DNA of 21,656 bases from IMG/VR virus record IMGVR_UViG_3300033986_000177, positions 1 through 21,656 of that record, one strand, 5' to 3'. This document shows, one piece after another, positions 9,056 to 19,334 of this stretch (the first letter of the stretch is position 1; each line of letters begins with the position of its first letter). Source of the stretch: a virus. Under the pieces are notes generated by a model, which saw only the letters and a list, made by a program, of their open reading frames with translations, did not search any database and was not told the origin of the DNA. The position numbers and the translations under genes are program-made.

Positions 9056-9600
9056 TTAATAGCCTCCAATCTTTTCTTCAAATTTGCTTTTTTAAATTTT
9101 ATAATATCTTTTGCCCTTGCTTGTACTTGCGTTTGCGGATAAGCCGGGAAAGTACAAATTGATACTTCCGCAACATCGGCTTTTTCCACTGTCCAATGCA
9201 GCCCATCCGGTTTTTCTTCGTAGCTTTCAAGTACGGGAGTAAAACCAAAGCTGCACCCGCTAATGTCACCACGTTCCACGCGGGCATATACTGCTAACGC
9301 TTGCGGGTCGTTTTGATTGATTTTAACCCGCCCCCATAAGCCGTGGGCGTCAGTTTTAAGTTCAAGCGTGCCGCTGCCTGTGCGCCCCAAAACATAACCC
9401 GTATCGTGGTTAAATAGACATCGGATGTCATTGCTTTTTAGTGCGTCGTCAAAAGCCCCACGGGCGATTTTTTCAAAACAGCCTTCATATAGTGCCGTTT
9501 CCTGTTCGAATACTGCAAAATATCCTTCGATGTATTTTTCGCCGCTTTGTTCGGCGCGAACAGTTAATTTTGACGCTTGATAAGATGTTCTTTCATTCAT
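9049..9600 (-). CDS. Prohead maturation protease (HK97 gp4 / U35 family)
   Basis: 183 aa from the ATG at 9600 (AAGGTGA six bases upstream). A longer ORF starting at 9666 lies inside the portal gene and is rejected. The serine protease signature is visible: His65 in CLFNHDTGYVLGR, Ser114 in GDISGCSFGF and Glu145 in ADVAEVSICTFPAYP; the conserved IEGYFAVFEQETALY is near residue 24. It cleaves the delta domain from the capsid protein and then itself during head maturation. It overlaps the portal end by 8 bases and the capsid start by 7, a coupled arrangement found across HK97-like phages. Confidence 0.93.
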   Translation of the reverse strand: MNERTSYQASKLTVRAEQSGEKYIEGYFAVFEQETALYEGCFEKIARGAFDDALKSNDIRCLFNHDTGYVLGRTGSGTLELKTDAHGLWGRVKINQNDPQALAVYARVERGDISGCSFGFTPVLESYEEKPDGLHWTVEKADVAEVSICTFPAYPQTQVQARAKDIIKFKKANLKKRLEAIKC

Positions 9601-10777
9601 TATTTTCACCTTCTTGCACAAGTTTTTTCTGGTCGCCAACCTTGTCCACCGGCACATAATTTTCAAGCACTATATACTCATTCATTCCGGGATTGTCGCT
9701 AGGGGCATAGTCAAATTCCGTACGGCCCTCATTTCGATTAAGCATGCCCCCCGCAACCATTTCTTTAACAAACTGTACTTTTTCGGTCAAGTTGTATTGC
9801 AACAAAGACTTTGGGTTGAATTTAAAATACATTGTGGGCGAATATAACAAGCCTTTTGTCAACGTCTGCTGTATAATCATTGCAACACTCATTATTTCAG
9901 TCGAAATAAAGTTGTTATATGCCTCTTTGTCAAAATCTCCAATGCCAACCATAAAAGCGGGTACGCCAAAAGCAGCCGCTATTGTGCCTTTGTCAAGCTT
10001 TATGCTATCTTGTATCGCAAGGTCGTTTAGTGTAAGTGGTTGTATTGTTTTGATGTCAATTTCTCCGGCCGGTATGAGCCACGGCTCGCCTTGTTCCGTT
10101 TCTTTCGCATAGCTGCCCAGTATTTTCCGGCGCATTTCCTCGTCTTGCAGCTCTTGTATGTCGGCATTTATCGATATAATTAGAGAGGGTTTCCACTTTG
10201 AGCGTAAAAACGCTGTTTTAGTAGCATTTGCCTGCAAAAGATTTTCGACCGCGTCTTTTATTAACGGCGCATATCCTTGCCCTTTATATGGCTTGTCGTC
10301 GTCTGGGTTGAGTACAAAATGCAAAACTTCGCTTGGGTCGAAAGCTACGCCATTATACCGTATACGGTAGCCGTCTTGTACATCGTCAAAATATACCCGG
10401 CTCATGTCCCATATGTCCATACTGTCAAGCAAACCGTTTTTGAAATTTGGATAAACAACGGCATTGCCGTATATGAGCATATCCGTGACAATTTTATAGA
10501 TAAAATTTTTACGCGTCATATTGTGGTTAGGCGTAATGTCAACCTTTTTCGCAAGCTCATTTTTGAGCCGCACATCCCCGTTTTCCTTGTTTTCCATCAG
10601 CATGATCGTCATTGAGGATACTAAATTAGCAATTTTATGTACACATTGCCGGACGTCCGGATTTTTTGATAATGGAGTATACCCAAGCGGGCAAAGTATG
10701 TCGCGGGCGTCAGTGCCGTTAAGCCAAAGCGCTACAGGGTCGGCGCGTATTTTGCGTTTACGAAATGGATTTTTAAT
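9593..10777 (-). CDS. HK97-type portal protein (apparent ATT start)
   Basis: The conserved portal N-terminus lies upstream of the first in-frame ATG (10612). Reading back in frame gives KNPFRKRKIRADPVALW, DARDILCPLGYTPLSKNP and DVRQCVHKIANLVSSM, a typical portal start leading into MTIMLMENKENGDVR. The frame is closed by the TerL stop at 10790. Between the stop and this sequence there is no ATG, GTG or TTG; the only candidate placed well after the RBS AAGGGGG (10785-10791) is ATT at 10777, seven bases away. This yields 394 aa, a normal portal length, against 339 aa from the ATG. Later motifs (MLIYGNAVVYPNFKNG, PSEVLHFVLNPDD, LDKGTIAAAFGVPAFMVGIG) confirm the family. The portal forms the dodecameric DNA entry ring. 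Confidence 0.9.
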   Translation of the reverse strand: MKNPFRKRKIRADPVALWLNGTDARDILCPLGYTPLSKNPDVRQCVHKIANLVSSMTIMLMENKENGDVRLKNELAKKVDITPNHNMTRKNFIYKIVTDMLIYGNAVVYPNFKNGLLDSMDIWDMSRVYFDDVQDGYRIRYNGVAFDPSEVLHFVLNPDDDKPYKGQGYAPLIKDAVENLLQANATKTAFLRSKWKPSLIISINADIQELQDEEMRRKILGSYAKETEQGEPWLIPAGEIDIKTIQPLTLNDLAIQDSIKLDKGTIAAAFGVPAFMVGIGDFDKEAYNNFISTEIMSVAMIIQQTLTKGLLYSPTMYFKFNPKSLLQYNLTEKVQFVKEMVAGGMLNRNEGRTEFDYAPSDNPGMNEYIVLENYVPVDKVGDQKKLVQEGENNE

Positions 10778-10784
10778 AACAATT

Positions 10785-10791
10785 CCCCCTT
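10785..10791 (-). promoter_or_regulatory. RBS AAGGGGG deciding the portal start
   Basis: AAGGGGG overlaps the terL stop codon TAA and stands seven bases before ATT at 10777. It supports initiation upstream of the first ATG at 10612, which lacks a convincing RBS. Confidence 0.7.
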
Positions 10792-12502
10792 AATTAAACC
10801 ATTTGTTTATTTTGCTTTTTTTGTCCTTATCGTCAATAAACTGTTTGACTGCAATAACCGTGCAATCAAATAAGTCCATACGGGCATTTTCGGCGACTTT
10901 TTCAAAGCGGATACGGTCATCAAAATCTTCCACCGCTTTTACGTTGCCAATGCAATACTCAAAAGCTTTGCTATGTAAGTAATAAAATTTTTTGTCTTTA
11001 ATTTGCTTTTCAATGTAGCGAAAAGCCTCGGATTTTTTCCAATATGCCTGATCTATTTGCTCCATTTTGAAACCGGATTGAACCATCATCCGGTAAAAAT
11101 CGCGTGATTTGTATTTGTCAAAACCGCAAGTATTAATTTTAAAACCTTTCCTTTTCATTTCGACAAACCATTTTACAACGTCGTTATAGTCGACCGTGTC
11201 TGCGTTACAAAGGGTAAGCCATCCTGCCTCTTGCCACCAAAAAAACGGGATGTTATCCTCCTCAGATTTTTCGTGCGCCCTCGTTATCGGCATAAAGCCA
11301 TGAGTTATTACAATTGACACGCCATTATATTCGCCGTATAAACAAGCTGCGGTCAAGTCGTGCATAACCGATAAATCCGCACCGCCCGTCCACGCAATCG
11401 GTAATTTTATAAGCTCGTCAATTGTCCAATTATAGCTTTCGTCGGAAACCTGCACCTCCGCCATGTCGAAATAACTATCCGCAACATTCGTATAAATATT
11501 GAGGGATTTATTTAAAAATTCGTTTCGGCTTGACGGATCGTTTTGAGCCTGCAACGCCTCTGCTTCCATGTCCTGCGGTCGGATTGTTATGCCGTAGTTA
11601 GGGTTAGCCTTTTCATGCTCAATGGGATTTAAGTAGTCTGCCGGGTTGTCTGCTTTGCAGATAAAAATAAAATATTGCTCGTCTTTTACAGTGCCTGCAA
11701 GCACTTTTTGACAATAACAAAGCCTTTGATAACAAAAACTGTTAATTTTTGCCCCCGCTGTGGTAATGCCAATCAAAAGCTTGTTGACATAAGCTTTCAT
11801 AGCCTGCTTGTAAACAAAATAATCGTTTGGGGAGCGATAGGCATGTATTTCATCCAAAATAATAATGTTGGCGTTTAACCCGTCGGCCTGTTCGGAATTG
11901 CTCGCAAGCGCCTGCATTTTAATCGAGCCGATTTCTTCCCCGTTTTCGTTTTCAAACGTTCGGCTTATTGAGTGTTCGGCGTTGCTGTCCATGATTTTAA
12001 AATTAGTTTCTTCGCCCATGTACTTTATGTTGCGTTTAATAACGTCAAAGCTTTCAAGTGCGCGGTCAAGTTTGGTTGCAATCATATAGAGCACCGACGT
12101 ATAACGCATATCAAGCAGCGAAAAAGCCCAAGCTAAAGCCGCTGCAAAAGCCGTTTTGCCGTTTTTTCGCGGTATAAAAATAAACGCCTCATGGTATCGG
12201 CGTTCTTTCGTTCCTTTTATGTAAAACCCTGCAAGGTTATAGCAAATAAATTTTTCCCATGCTTCCAACAAAAATGGTTGCCCTTTTTTCGGGCCTTTGA
12301 TATGCACAAACGTTTTTTCGATTATTTGTATCACAAATTCCGCGCTTTTTTCGTTAAAGTCATATTCGCCACTTTGCAGGTCGTTTAAAAACCTTTGGCA
12401 CGCTTGTATGTTTTCAACGCAAGCTATTTTTTTGCCGCCAACAACATTACGGGCATACTCCATCACGATATTAAAATTTTTACCGTGTTTAGTTGACGCC
12501 AT
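10790..12502 (-). CDS. terL: Terminase large subunit
   Basis: 570 aa, ATG with a short AAGGG upstream. The N-terminal ATPase has Walker A PRKNGKTA (residues 111-118) and Walker B NIIILDEIH (212-220), followed by the coupling motif GITTAG (245-250). The C-terminal RNase H-like nuclease shows GGADLSVMHD (Asp376, Asp382), GFDKYKSRDF (Asp462) and LFDCTVIA (Asp546). It pumps DNA into the prohead through the portal and cuts the concatemer. Length and motif spacing are normal for the family that pairs with P27-type small subunits. It overlaps terS by 14 bases, and the portal follows directly in the same reading frame after the TAA. Confidence 0.97.
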   Translation of the reverse strand: MASTKHGKNFNIVMEYARNVVGGKKIACVENIQACQRFLNDLQSGEYDFNEKSAEFVIQIIEKTFVHIKGPKKGQPFLLEAWEKFICYNLAGFYIKGTKERRYHEAFIFIPRKNGKTAFAAALAWAFSLLDMRYTSVLYMIATKLDRALESFDVIKRNIKYMGEETNFKIMDSNAEHSISRTFENENGEEIGSIKMQALASNSEQADGLNANIIILDEIHAYRSPNDYFVYKQAMKAYVNKLLIGITTAGAKINSFCYQRLCYCQKVLAGTVKDEQYFIFICKADNPADYLNPIEHEKANPNYGITIRPQDMEAEALQAQNDPSSRNEFLNKSLNIYTNVADSYFDMAEVQVSDESYNWTIDELIKLPIAWTGGADLSVMHDLTAACLYGEYNGVSIVITHGFMPITRAHEKSEEDNIPFFWWQEAGWLTLCNADTVDYNDVVKWFVEMKRKGFKINTCGFDKYKSRDFYRMMVQSGFKMEQIDQAYWKKSEAFRYIEKQIKDKKFYYLHSKAFEYCIGNVKAVEDFDDRIRFEKVAENARMDLFDCTVIAVKQFIDDKDKKSKINKWFN

Positions 12503-15173: not shown

Positions 15174-15476
15174 TTAAACCTCCTCTATAAGTTTTAATGC
15201 ATCCTCCACACTGCGGCATATGCCCGCCCTGTGGCCCATGTCATTAAGCATCTTAATAAATTTATACTGCTCCGGCCTCACTTTGCCGCGCGGCGCTTTA
15301 ACCTCAATAAATGCCACCTTGCCCCGCCCGATGAAAAGCAAGTCCGGCAAGCCTTTGACGCCGCATTTTACACGCCGCCCGTCCCCGGTTAAAAATACTC
15401 CCACATTGAGCCTTATCACTATGCCGTAATCGGACAGCGCCTTGCGTATGGCGTTTTGTATGTCAACCTCTGCCAA
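15174..15476 (-). CDS. VRR-NUC domain nuclease
   Basis: 100 aa from a TTG at 15476 with GGAG upstream; the codon before is a stop, so no earlier start exists. This is a stand-alone VRR-NUC protein of the PD-(D/E)xK superfamily: GVKGLPDLLFIGRGKVAFIE (Pro44-Asp45), EVKAPRGKVRPEQ (Glu58, Lys60), and a C-terminal GICRSVEDALKLI. Stand-alone phage forms of this size are believed to cut branched or flap DNA structures and are often coded beside the SF2 helicase, as here; the two genes overlap by 14 bases. Full catalytic residues are present, so activity is likely. Confidence 0.92.
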   Translation of the reverse strand: MAEVDIQNAIRKALSDYGIVIRLNVGVFLTGDGRRVKCGVKGLPDLLFIGRGKVAFIEVKAPRGKVRPEQYKFIKMLNDMGHRAGICRSVEDALKLIEEV

Positions 15477-16791
15477 TTATGCCCATCTCCTTGCCCTTGT
15501 ACCATGCCCAGCCGGGCTTGTAGCCTTTGAGCTTGCCATATACCGCAAGCTCTTTGAGCGTCTTGCATTTTTTGTACGTGTCATAAGTCTTGATTATGTC
15601 GGCAATGCGCTGCTCGTTGATTTTTTTAAGCTCGCCGCCTTGCGCCTCGACTGTGCGCTCGTTAGCATATACATGCCCGCATTTGGGGCAAACTGCGGCA
15701 GGGGAGTGAGTGTAATAGCAATCAGGGCATTGCCTTACCGGTACGGCTGCTTTGCGCGCTGTTTTTTGTGGTTTGGGATCAAGGCTCCATTGTCTGTCCA
15801 TATCCGGCAGGCCATGGCGGTACACGTTGCCAACATGGTCGATTATTATTGCCCGCTTGTCCGGCTTGTGCCTCATGCAGCGCATTGACTGTTGTATGTA
15901 TAGCGTAAGAGATTTTGTCGGCCGCAGGAGTATTGCCACCTCGCAATCAGGCACATCAAAGCCCTCGCTGATAAGGTCAACATTACACAAAATTTTTATT
16001 GTACCGTTTCGGAAGTCCTGTACTATCTGCTTGCGCAGCTCTGCGGGGGTGTCCCCGTCAAAATGTGCCGCCGCAATGCCAGCTTGTGCAAACTGTGCCG
16101 CTATTGCTTTGCTATAATCTAACGTCGGGCAGTAGCATATTGCTTGTTTGCCGTCTGCAAGTCGCTTGTAATGCTCTATTATGTCGCCGTAAATTTTAGG
16201 CTTGTCAAGCAACTGGGCGGCTGCCGATTGCACAAAATCTCCGGCGCGCGATTTAAGGCTGGACAAGTCCGCCACCTGCGGCGCATAATAGTCGTAAGGG
16301 GCAAGATAGCCATTATCTATCATCCATTTGGCGGAGGGCATTATAAGGAGCCTGTCGTTAATCTCGCCAAGCCCGCCGCCGTTAAGCCTTACGGGAGTAG
16401 CGGTAAGCCCCACCCGATAAGCATCTGGATATGCGTTATATATCCGGCGGTAGCTCTCCGCAAGGCAATGGTGATTTTCGTCTGTGATTATCAACGACGG
16501 CTTTCCCACGCAATCCAAATGCCTTGTGACAGTCTGCACCATGGACACATCGCAAAGCGCCATATTAACGCCATGCGCGGCAAAAGTGTCTTTTAGCTGC
16601 TCAACAAGTTCCTGCCTGTGCACAAGCAACAGCACCCGTCTGCCGTTAAGGGTTGCCCGCTTTGCCATTTCTGCGGCAATCAGCGCCTTGCCACACCCGC
16701 ACGGCCCGACAATGCATGGAGATTTATAACCCTCTCTCCACGCTTTGGCAACCTCGTTAATAATTTCTTCTTGATATTTTCTTAAATTTAT
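15463..16791 (-). CDS. DEAD/DEAH-type SF2 helicase (apparent ATA start, altered Walker A)
   Basis: The first in-frame ATG (16668) lies after motif I. Reading back to the stop at 16798 gives NLRKYQEEIINEVAKAW and then CIVGPCGCGKALIAAEM, the expected N-terminus. No ATG, GTG or TTG occurs there. AGAGGTG (16805-16799) stands about seven bases before an ATA at 16791, exactly where an ATG would be expected, giving 442 aa. Motif I is GPCGCGKA (29-36), with Ala36 instead of Ser/Thr. Motif II is DENH (104-107), motif III LTATP (about 129-133), motif VI about QQSMRCMR (299-306). A four-Cys zinc ribbon (CPDC, CPKC; 354-370) follows. Its role would be unwinding during phage replication. The start and Ala36 raise doubt about normal expression and ATP hydrolysis. 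Confidence 0.88.
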   Translation of the reverse strand: MNLRKYQEEIINEVAKAWREGYKSPCIVGPCGCGKALIAAEMAKRATLNGRRVLLLVHRQELVEQLKDTFAAHGVNMALCDVSMVQTVTRHLDCVGKPSLIITDENHHCLAESYRRIYNAYPDAYRVGLTATPVRLNGGGLGEINDRLLIMPSAKWMIDNGYLAPYDYYAPQVADLSSLKSRAGDFVQSAAAQLLDKPKIYGDIIEHYKRLADGKQAICYCPTLDYSKAIAAQFAQAGIAAAHFDGDTPAELRKQIVQDFRNGTIKILCNVDLISEGFDVPDCEVAILLRPTKSLTLYIQQSMRCMRHKPDKRAIIIDHVGNVYRHGLPDMDRQWSLDPKPQKTARKAAVPVRQCPDCYYTHSPAAVCPKCGHVYANERTVEAQGGELKKINEQRIADIIKTYDTYKKCKTLKELAVYGKLKGYKPGWAWYKGKEMGIIGRG

Positions 16792-16798
16792 TGCTTTT

Positions 16799-16805
16799 CA
16801 CCTCT
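16799..16805 (-). promoter_or_regulatory. RBS AGAGGTG deciding the helicase start
   Basis: AGAGGTG is placed about seven bases before ATA (16791). The internal ATG at 16668 has no RBS and would delete motif I. Confidence 0.65.
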
Positions 16806-16853
16806 TTTTGTTACATCTTTTACACTTTCGTTACACCATAAAAAGAGCTACAA

Positions 16854-16875
16854 ATGCCTATTTTACGCGGTTTTA
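16854..16875 (+). repeat. Long direct repeat, copy A (ATGCCTATTTTACGC)
   Basis: ATGCCTATTTTACGC followed by GGTTTTA; 15 identical bases plus GTTT after one mismatch are shared with the copy at 17017. Both copies are followed by TTACAC boxes. Confidence 0.85.
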
Positions 16876-16899
16876 CACCTGTTACACCTGTTACACCTT
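16873..16899 (+). repeat. Tandem 9-bp iterons TTACACCTG
   Basis: Three head-to-tail copies of a 9-base unit at 16873, 16882 and 16891; the third has T as its last base. Part of the origin candidate. Confidence 0.85.
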
Positions 16900-17016
16900 T
16901 TTTTGCATATACACTATATATATTTATGTTTTTTCTTTTTTTTGTTTTTATTAAAATGCGTATATATAATATATATAATAGTGTAACAAGTGTACATGTG
17001 TAACAATATATTATAG

Positions 17017-17037
17017 ATGCCTATTTTACGCAGTTTA
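17017..17037 (+). repeat. Long direct repeat, copy B (ATGCCTATTTTACGC)
   Basis: Second copy, followed by AGTTTA and then GTTACACCTT. Together with copy A it brackets the AT-rich core. Confidence 0.85.
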
Positions 17038-17077
17038 GCTGTTACACCTTTGTTACACTTTTTGCTCAAAGGTGTAA

Positions 17078-18877
17078 TTAAAATGGAGGATTTGTACTTT
17101 GCTGCATTATTTTAATGCAAGCACATCTTGCCAAAGTACCGTTAATACGTTGAGGGACTTTGGATTTGCCTTGCTTGTCGCTCACTGCTAGCCCTTTGTC
17201 AATCATCATTTTAAGGGCGGCACGCGGCGAAAATCCCGCATCCTGCAAAGCCTTGTCAAACACATTGCCAAGTATGTACGCATAGCCGTCGTCAATCCTG
17301 CCCCAGACTTCGCCGATATCACTCTCGCCGCAAAATTTTATTTTATTCGCGGCAATAAACTGCAAGCAAAATTGATATGCCCGCTCTGTGGCGTCAGCAT
17401 CCTGCCTTGTCGGCAAAAACGGCAATAAGTCGTCTACTGTCAACGGCGCATCGTCAAAACCATAAAAATCAACGAGCGCCTTATCGGCTGCAATCAAAAG
17501 GGCAATGTTTGCTGTTTGTTTTTCGGTCGTGTCATTTTTTGATAAATCCGCCTGCAAGGCTTTAAAACGGGCCTTTATGTGCTCCATGTTGCCGTCCCGC
17601 AGGAGATAATCTATCCATCCCATGCCGCCAAAGCCGTAATTTTCCAAAAGCGTTGCAACCGTTGCATTGCCGTTGTAAAACAGCTTGTTCTGTGGCTCAA
17701 TCTCCAAAATGCGGTTGTATATCCCTCCGGTCGAATGGTCCTCGACTATGGGGCACTCTCCTGATGTGATTATGATATTGCGCCAAGAGTCCACCCGGTC
17801 AAGGCCGCCGGAACGGTTGCCGCGCATTTTGGCGACGCCGTTTGCAAGCATGTATATTTCGGCGTCAAAGCTTTTTTTGTTGCATCTTATATATTGAAAC
17901 TCATCAAGCACAAGGGGCAGGTTTTTAAGCGCACTTGCATTGCGCTCCATCCCTACGCCGGTTGAGTAAAACGATACGGTGTATTTGCTCAGCGCAGGAT
18001 TTCCCCAAACGCTTGACGCAAGCATAAGGGCAACGGTTTTGCCCGCTCCGGACGTTCCCCAAAGGTGTACGAAAAAATTATTAAGATTAAACGGCTCGAC
18101 AAGTACAGACGCATAGCTTGCGGCAAGGACTATTTTGTTGACGATACTTGTCCGCCTTGCCTCGACGACAACATCAAGCCATTTGTTAAAATCCCCAGAT
18201 GTGTGGATGTGTGTCAATATGCTGCCTTCGCCGGTCTGCACTTGCTTTGCGTAAGGCAAAAACAGCTTGTCAGACAGCCATCCCGCCTTATCGGTATAAT
18301 ACTTGACCGGCAGCTCGTTTAGGCGCTCCACATCCTGCAAATAGGCAATCAAATATTTAGCGTTGCCATCCGTTACCATTATCCCGTTGTCGGACAGGGC
18401 AATAATTTTTTTGGCGGACGCAATCTCGGACTTATCGACCGTCAAATAGTGCCAGCCACCATCACGATAAAATTTTATCTTAACTTTTTGCAGGTCTGTA
18501 CTGATGTCAATAAGCCGCTCGCATAGGCAAATCTGATGCGGGCAGGCAAGCTGCTCCTCGCCGTTGATATTGCGCCTGATAGAGCCGCTGTCGTCAATCT
18601 GCCATGTGCCGATGTCAAGCGTGAGGCCGTCAAAGTCGTATAAATTTTGTGACGGGGTGTAGATTTGTGTCTGCTCACGCCTGTATTTGTGATACAGGTC
18701 CTTAAATTGCTTTGTGCCGGTAACAAGGCCATCCTTTTTGGCGGCTTTTGCGGCGGCATCCATCGCCATCTCAAAATCCAGCGTGTCGCAACCTTGCAAG
18801 GTTTTATGATATAGGCCCGCAAAAATTTCTTTTAGCTTTGCGCCCGGGCTTAAATCTGCCGGAAGTGTGTTATCCAT
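17078..18877 (-). CDS. DUF927-type ATPase / replicative helicase
   Basis: 599 aa, ATG with RBS AGGAGG nine bases upstream. The N-terminal 110 residues are a small helical part; the DUF927 core follows, with KYYTDKAGWLSDKLFLPYAK, then Walker A GTSGAGKT (274-281), Walker B LPLVLDEFQ (320-328), and WRNIIITSGECPI (about 365-377) in the sensor region. The last 130 residues form another domain ending with a winged-helix-like piece (FSPRAALKMMIDKGLAV). DUF927 proteins are found in phages and mobile elements beside CHC2 primase modules and are taken to act as the replicative helicase. Here the CHC2 gene overlaps it by 8 bases, and the origin candidate follows directly. The helicase role is known by context for the family, not proven here. 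Confidence 0.9.
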   Translation of the reverse strand: MDNTLPADLSPGAKLKEIFAGLYHKTLQGCDTLDFEMAMDAAAKAAKKDGLVTGTKQFKDLYHKYRREQTQIYTPSQNLYDFDGLTLDIGTWQIDDSGSIRRNINGEEQLACPHQICLCERLIDISTDLQKVKIKFYRDGGWHYLTVDKSEIASAKKIIALSDNGIMVTDGNAKYLIAYLQDVERLNELPVKYYTDKAGWLSDKLFLPYAKQVQTGEGSILTHIHTSGDFNKWLDVVVEARRTSIVNKIVLAASYASVLVEPFNLNNFFVHLWGTSGAGKTVALMLASSVWGNPALSKYTVSFYSTGVGMERNASALKNLPLVLDEFQYIRCNKKSFDAEIYMLANGVAKMRGNRSGGLDRVDSWRNIIITSGECPIVEDHSTGGIYNRILEIEPQNKLFYNGNATVATLLENYGFGGMGWIDYLLRDGNMEHIKARFKALQADLSKNDTTEKQTANIALLIAADKALVDFYGFDDAPLTVDDLLPFLPTRQDADATERAYQFCLQFIAANKIKFCGESDIGEVWGRIDDGYAYILGNVFDKALQDAGFSPRAALKMMIDKGLAVSDKQGKSKVPQRINGTLARCACIKIMQQSTNPPF

Positions 18878-19334
18878 GTTTTGCCGCCTCCTCTATCAGG
18901 TACTCTATGTAGTCAAGCTTTTGCAGGGCCTCGACAAACTCGGGGCAGGGGACGTCATCGGGGCTTTGCGGCCGCTTGTCGCAATATGCCTGCCAAAGCC
19001 GCCTATGCTCGGCGCACAACGCCGCTATACGGCTGTCTTTGCTTGTCTTTGGCTTTTGCGGGCGTATCGGAATGGCCTGCTTGACGCGGGACAGCCCGAA
19101 ATCCATGGCAAGCTTGTCACAAGCTGCCTTAAAATTAAGCCCGTATAATCGCATTGTAAAATCAATTACATCCCCACCGGCGCCGCAGCCGAAACAATAA
19201 TAACTATGACTGTATAGCTTAAGCGAGGCCGTGTCCTCGCGATGGAAAGGGCAGCAAATAAAGCCTTTTTTAGGCGGGTAGCCGTATGTTTCGGCTACCC
19301 GCTCCATAGACAATTGTTTTATCGCGTCTAAAAT
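18870..19334 (-). CDS. CHC2 zinc-finger primase domain protein (apparent ATT start)
   Basis: The zinc ribbon is complete: CPFH, then CFGC (Cys-x2-His ... Cys-x2-Cys) in a sequence MERVAETYGYPPKKGFICCP with GGDVIDFTMRLYGLNF after it, as in the DnaG N-terminal domain. No TOPRIM domain is present, so this is a stand-alone zinc-binding primase part of 154 aa. A TTG at 19313 or ATG at 19307 could be called as start, but neither has an RBS, and the conserved helix LDAIKQLSMERVAE begins earlier, at an ATT at 19334. GGTGGGAG lies 10 bases before this ATT. No ATG, GTG or TTG occurs in that earlier part. The start overlaps the end of the SSB-like gene by 7 bases. It presumably works with the DUF927 protein in priming. 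Confidence 0.85.
   Translation of the reverse strand: MLDAIKQLSMERVAETYGYPPKKGFICCPFHREDTASLKLYSHSYYCFGCGAGGDVIDFTMRLYGLNFKAACDKLAMDFGLSRVKQAIPIRPQKPKTSKDSRIAALCAEHRRLWQAYCDKRPQSPDDVPCPEFVEALQKLDYIEYLIEEAAKHG

Follow-up and report, generated by a model that had tools for sequence, protein, structure and literature searches.

A probable AUU start codon in a phage portal protein gene and recurring candidate AUU/AUA starts among its relatives

Results

The portal start site

The portal protein gene of the phage DNA analyzed here is very probably translated from an AUU codon at position 10777 on the minus strand, by Shine-Dalgarno (SD)-directed initiation close behind the large terminase gene, terL. 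The window, by which we mean the whole stretch of 21,656 nucleotides (IMG/VR record IMGVR_UViG_3300033986_000177), carries terL (10790-12502, minus strand; PHROG 9, E = 1.5e-119) immediately upstream of the portal gene, and the terL stop codon TAA (10792-10790) lies in the portal frame, 12 nt ahead of AUU. The SD AAGGGGG (10791-10785) overlaps this stop and is followed by the 7 nt AATTGTT (10784-10778) and then ATT (10777-10775), so that the junction reads ...TTT AAT TAA GGG GGA ATT GTT ATT AAA AAT CCA TTT... on the minus strand. A preliminary description of this DNA had placed ATT seven bases past AAGGGGG, in a frame bounded by the terL stop and devoid of ATG, GTG, or TTG as far as ATG 10612, and both statements are exact on reading this strand. 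ATT is followed by 54 codons before this first in-frame ATG, and the distance from ATT to 10613 is 165 nt, or 55 codons. A caller restricted to ATG, GTG, and TTG returns a shortened open reading frame, 9593-10612.

The calculated duplex with the anti-SD has an energy of -10.2 kcal/mol at the ATT site, with a spacing of 6, versus +0.6 kcal/mol at ATG 10612, which has no SD. In the local fold the SD of the window is partly paired (mean unpaired probability of 0.19, in a calculation that leaves out unfolding by terL ribosomes). The same SD and ATT are found in L002, a different contig that is 96.6% identical over 6.2 kb; as the site is identical despite 203 mismatches over that length, ATT is not a sequencing error. 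On sequence grounds, AUU, read as fMet, is the only codon at a suitable distance from the SD that could act as a start, and in relatives its position, where TTG, ATA, and ATG starts align, is held only by start-capable codons. With AUU coming first and no usable NUG, a strong SD at normal spacing, and conservation, the site is a predicted natural AUN (infC-type) initiation site.

The portal protein and its N-terminus

From AUU, the portal gene (9593-10777, minus strand) has 394 codons. Its product matches PF04860 (E = 2.5e-58) over profile positions 1 to 319 of 321 and PHROG 12 (E = 2.5e-70), and its fold matches the portals of Geobacillus phage GBSV1 and HK97. The gene order in the window is the HK97-type terL-portal-protease-major capsid protein (MCP), with terL and portal identified by profile and the following two genes by homology across loci and the annotation of named relatives.

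The 55 codons that would be missing if ATG 10612 were the start (10613-10777, minus strand) are, judged by their substitution pattern, protein coding and under purifying selection. In codon-aligned pairs, pN/pS for the 54 codons after the start versus the rest of the gene is 0.23 versus 0.22 between the window and L003, 0.24 versus 0.21 between the window and L171, 0.07 versus 0.06 for L051-L065, and 0.07 versus 0.12 for L004-L005; the N-terminal part is looser in the pair L012-L014 (0.34 versus 0.15). The near-invariant residues 32, 33, 49, 50, and 54 all precede ATG 10612. This selection, together with an N-terminus shared by relatives, agrees with the initial proposal that the codons ahead of the first ATG encode a portal N-terminus. 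Two tryptic peptides, ADPVALWLNGTDAR and DILCPLGYTPLSK, are predicted to be encoded ahead of ATG 10612 in the portal of this phage.

An AlphaFold2 model of the portal built on a 74-sequence alignment has a mean pLDDT of 77.5 and supersedes a poor model from a 14-sequence alignment (pLDDT 48). With a pLDDT of about 40, the first ~34 residues resemble a disordered tail (low confidence at 1-31), and the first helix, residues 40 to 54 (codons 10616-10660, minus strand), lies in a block with a pLDDT of about 92. The best fold match of the model is the GBSV1 portal 9i8c (E = 2.2e-36), and 8fql also matches (E = 3e-17). As 9i8c, the closest solved relative, was deposited "without the N-terminal tail" and the pLDDT of this region is low, folding may not require the tail. 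In the model, helix 40-54 belongs to the portal fold and would be deleted by a start at ATG 10612. The expectation that a truncated portal would probably not assemble therefore depends on the loss of this helix.

Start codons among portal relatives

Relatives were gathered from viral contigs, bacterial genomes, and named phages, giving a family of 53 distinct members at ≥55% identity, the window included. Starts were called with AUN penalized by 3 kcal/mol against AUG, and the calls comprise 15 AUG, 23 UUG/GUG, 9 AUU, and 6 AUA. In the 15 AUN portals, ATT or ATA stands about 5 nt past a strong SD, and TTG, GTG, or ATG takes its place in the others; the starts lie about 28 to 43 codons ahead of a conserved GY. 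A start at the position of ATG 10612 is called in 0/53. A portal starting at ATT, as originally suggested, is thus supported by the starts of relatives as well as by the purifying selection upstream of ATG 10612. When the strongest SD was sought first and start codons were ignored, an in-frame NUG occupied the slot behind it in 37/53 members, ATT or ATA at a spacing of 4 to 6 in 14/53, and neither in 2/53, in one of which another SD outscored.

The codon preceding the motif KNPF/RNPF is ATT in the window, L170, and L123, ATA in L100 and L098, and TTG in L171, L176, and L099; that preceding GLF/GIF/GIL-type motifs is ATG, GTG, TTG, or ATA, start capable in every case. On a tree built without the N-terminal columns of the start region, AUN requires 8 changes, and at least 4 of these are forced by well-supported branches. 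The noncanonical codon is conserved in 15 of the 53 distinct relatives and on at least four such branches. AUN portals also occur in bacterial genomes, namely, those of Sporanaerobium hydrogeniformans (L051) and an Oscillospiraceae MAG (L054). As in translationally coupled gene pairs, the portal start of the window lies near the upstream stop, at 12 nt, with the SD over that stop; the distance is 9 to 23 nt in most relatives. In two AUN relatives terL is 487 to 1836 nt from the portal start, and coupling to terL is therefore inessential in the family. Among named phages no portal relative reaches 60% identity, hence a comparison with deposited annotation is unavailable for AUN members; in the plasmid collection the best matches are 22 to 26% identical, with none at 60%.

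An AUN call for the L083 portal was rejected, with its weak SD and its position 6 codons ahead of the anchor, and AUN calls in terL homologues were regarded as artifacts, having mostly weak SDs and inconsistent internal positions. Two distant portals, L155 and L146 (44 to 46% identity), carry ATA CTA GAY AGA TTT 11 nt past a strong SD.

The portal is present in 12 copies per virion capsid. Start codons of portal and MCP genes at the same loci differ (Fisher p = 2.5e-12, in a test that ignores relatedness), with 47 AUG, 3 NUG, and 0 AUN for MCP (n = 50) versus 15 AUG, 23 NUG, and 15 AUN for portal, such that 38/53 portals have a non-AUG start. Protease genes frequently start with NUG, and with AUN in 1/51. 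The protease genes of L152 and L117 were called at ATA behind strong SDs (AAGGGGGTGAAAAC followed by ATA and AAGGAGGCGGTTAAA followed by ATA), which makes the protease a second head gene with possible AUN starts.

A probable second AUN start in the window

All genes of the window were scanned for AUN starts, and the sole strong-SD call besides the portal is a superfamily 2 (SF2) helicase gene (ResIII, PF04851), which from the sequence appears to start at ATA 16791. As the helicase also has one, AUN starts are no one-off in this phage. The gene has 442 codons from AUA (15463-16791, minus strand); its AUA codon (16789-16791) follows the SD AAGAGGTGA (16798-16806) with a duplex of -10.1 kcal/mol and a spacing of 6. 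The frame contains no in-frame NUG between TGA 16800-16798 and ATG 16668, and ATA 16791 is two codons past that stop. The 41 codons ahead of ATG 16668 encode LRKYQEE and motif I, GPCGCGKA (Walker A), and the match to PF04851 has an E value of 3.5e-26 from AUA versus 3.5e-13 from ATG 16668. Most helicase relatives start with ATG, including L192 (77%), and L193 (63%) carries ATA behind an SD.

Motif I of the helicase (16672-16710, minus strand) has Ala in GPCGCGKA versus Ser/Thr in the other relatives shown (e.g., GGGKS), with GKA also in L192 (77%); it is conceivable from the sequence that ATPase activity may be altered by GKA. The window contains seven copies of GTGTAAC, on both strands, each of them within the 229-bp gap 16830-17058 upstream of the helicase (1.2 expected), and they adjoin repeated CGTAAAATAGGCAT blocks, an arrangement that looks like the iterons of a replication origin. 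An ATT call at 19334 for a CHC2 zinc-finger primase was rejected, as this codon belongs to the 3' end of the SSB-like gene that precedes it. The primase-like gene (18870-19313, minus strand) lacks an SD before TTG 19313 or ATG 19307 and is perhaps coupled to the SSB-like gene, the stop of which is 14 nt upstream.

Discussion

When the sequence of the site is placed into the context of initiation, a simple mechanism can be proposed. The SD overlapping the terL stop would position the 30S subunit, and initiator fMet-tRNA would match two of the three bases of AUU, and the product would be a portal of 394 residues that has the N-terminus typical of its family. Both initiation at AUU and methionine as the first residue are what we infer for this site, and part of the initiation could be due to ribosomes terminating at the terL stop 12 nt upstream. 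The closest portals in host genomes (L171 and L176, 74%) belong to Clostridia sharing their order with Ruminiclostridium papyrosolvens, and the host is therefore probably a clostridium, in which AUN starts function.

Other start positions are far less convincing. ATG 10612 is the earliest canonical start and would give a portal of 339 amino acids with the upstream codons left untranslated, and yet that start would lack an SD, leave the purifying selection ahead of it unaccounted for, and cost the protein helix 40-54 and five near-invariant residues; with no relative called there, it is very improbable. Slightly less credible still is readthrough of the terL TAA to yield a TerL-portal fusion. 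The two genes do share a frame, with TAA and 4 codons between them, but terL of several AUN relatives ends in a different frame or is 487 to 1836 nt distant. Initiation at the out-of-frame TTG 10782, situated between SD and ATT, with a subsequent -1 shift at AAAAA is just as remote: this TTG sits only 2 nt past the SD in a frame that runs for 16 codons before closing, and the remaining 14 AUN lineages lack a TTG in the interval from the SD to the start.

A more serious alternative, which we nevertheless hold to be improbable, is that the true start in relatives is a GTG within the SD and that AUN is an ordinary internal Ile codon. Eleven of the 15 AUN lineages do have a GTG in frame at -9, where it forms part of the SD (GGTGAG or a similar sequence), and these are therefore the weaker cases. 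This GTG is only 0 to 2 nt from any SD, however, and the codons between GTG and AUN are unconserved even in the 93%-identical L100 and L098 (AGA AAT versus ATT AGA), whereas codons 2 to 6 are conserved. ATC is also absent at the AUN position, although it makes up 24% of Ile codons (110/451). In L170 and L048 an in-frame NUG occurs solely before the SD, and a GTG-in-SD start is impossible in the window and in L069/L070, where there is no in-frame upstream NUG at all. The same GTG bears on the prediction that automated gene calls would be truncated. This applies to the window, as seen with the restricted caller, but 11/15 AUN relatives would receive the in-frame GTG instead, and the 55-residue truncation is consequently specific to the window phage and its near twin.

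Initiation at AUU or AUA is itself already known, if rare (infC, pcnB, ccpN, and cvfC1). An internal AUU start in phage T4 gives rise to the shorter product of gene 26*, which resembles the portal case as AUU in a phage structural gene and differs from it in being internal and not the main start. A literature search, thin on subscription papers, found no report of an AUU/ATT start in a phage portal. The Staphylococcus aureus genes infC, ccpN, and cvfC1 (PMC13009471) similarly combine AUU/AUA with a strong SD and are conserved in relatives, but they are host genes, and the feedback of IF3 on infC has no known counterpart at the portal of the window. With an extended SD, the activity of AUU/AUA starts in S. 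aureus is about 10% of that of AUG (PMC13009471). The Escherichia coli pcnB gene also has an AUU start, which limits translation according to Binns and Masters (2002), as cited in PMC13009471, and is again a host gene, that of a proteobacterium. In Clostridium butyricum and C. sporogenes, AUU/AUA/CUG/AUC give 5 to 20% and 7 to 17% of AUG, respectively, with one leader, and six alternative codons give 45 to 85% and 40 to 100% with another (PMC9680021). The M13 gene V-gene VII pair exemplifies close stop-start coupling that is IF3 sensitive (PMC2268962), although those reporters used AUG and mutant initiator codons, whereas the portal AUN is natural.

The GBSV1 portal (PDB 9i8c, DQ340064) is 47% identical and has the same terL-portal-protease order, and its N-terminus MGLFDRW...IRAD (MGLFDRWRRTKRKSKIRAD...) aligns to the region ahead of ATG 10612; unlike the portal of the window, it starts at ATG. 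The HK97-family portals (PF04860; HK97 gp3, 8fql/8cez) are alike in profile and fold, with an identity of just about 18 to 19%.

Why a weak start would be kept in a portal gene may be explained in two ways, for which we find about equal support, each holding a little short of an even chance. A weak AUU could be selected to hold down the synthesis of portal in relation to that of capsid protein, consistent with the occurrence of AUN in 15/53 portals and 0/50 MCPs of the same loci (same test, relatedness ignored). Against this, the protease, probably also required below capsid amounts, rarely has AUN (1/51), and AUN nearly matches the activity of AUG in some Clostridium contexts. It is equally conceivable that AUN is tolerated and unselected, with weak clostridial discrimination letting NUG and AUN drift, given a strong SD. 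This would fit the range of 5 to 100% of AUG for AUU/AUA/CUG/AUC in Clostridium (PMC9680021), the repeated switching of start codons across the tree, and the AUA start of the unrelated helicase gene, but drift by itself fails to predict the concentration of AUN in portals and its absence from 50 distinct MCP starts. A bolder reading, which we put forward tentatively and consider rather unlikely, is that AUU and AUA are ordinary, repeatedly gained starts in Clostridia phages that prefer genes of low copy number, portal and helicase among them, and are excluded from MCP, amounting to a dosage code invisible to current gene finders.

In conclusion, this analysis points to an essential virion gene with an AUN start that is kept by relatives and to a second AUN gene within the same 21.6 kb. 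Gene finders limited to ATG, GTG, and TTG would truncate both portal and helicase, the latter losing its ATPase motif, and as such finders truncate genes of this kind, protein databases for Clostridia phages probably contain N-terminally clipped entries. These phages could offer a natural test of the start codon stringency of clostridial ribosomes and of whether phages set protein ratios by start codon strength.
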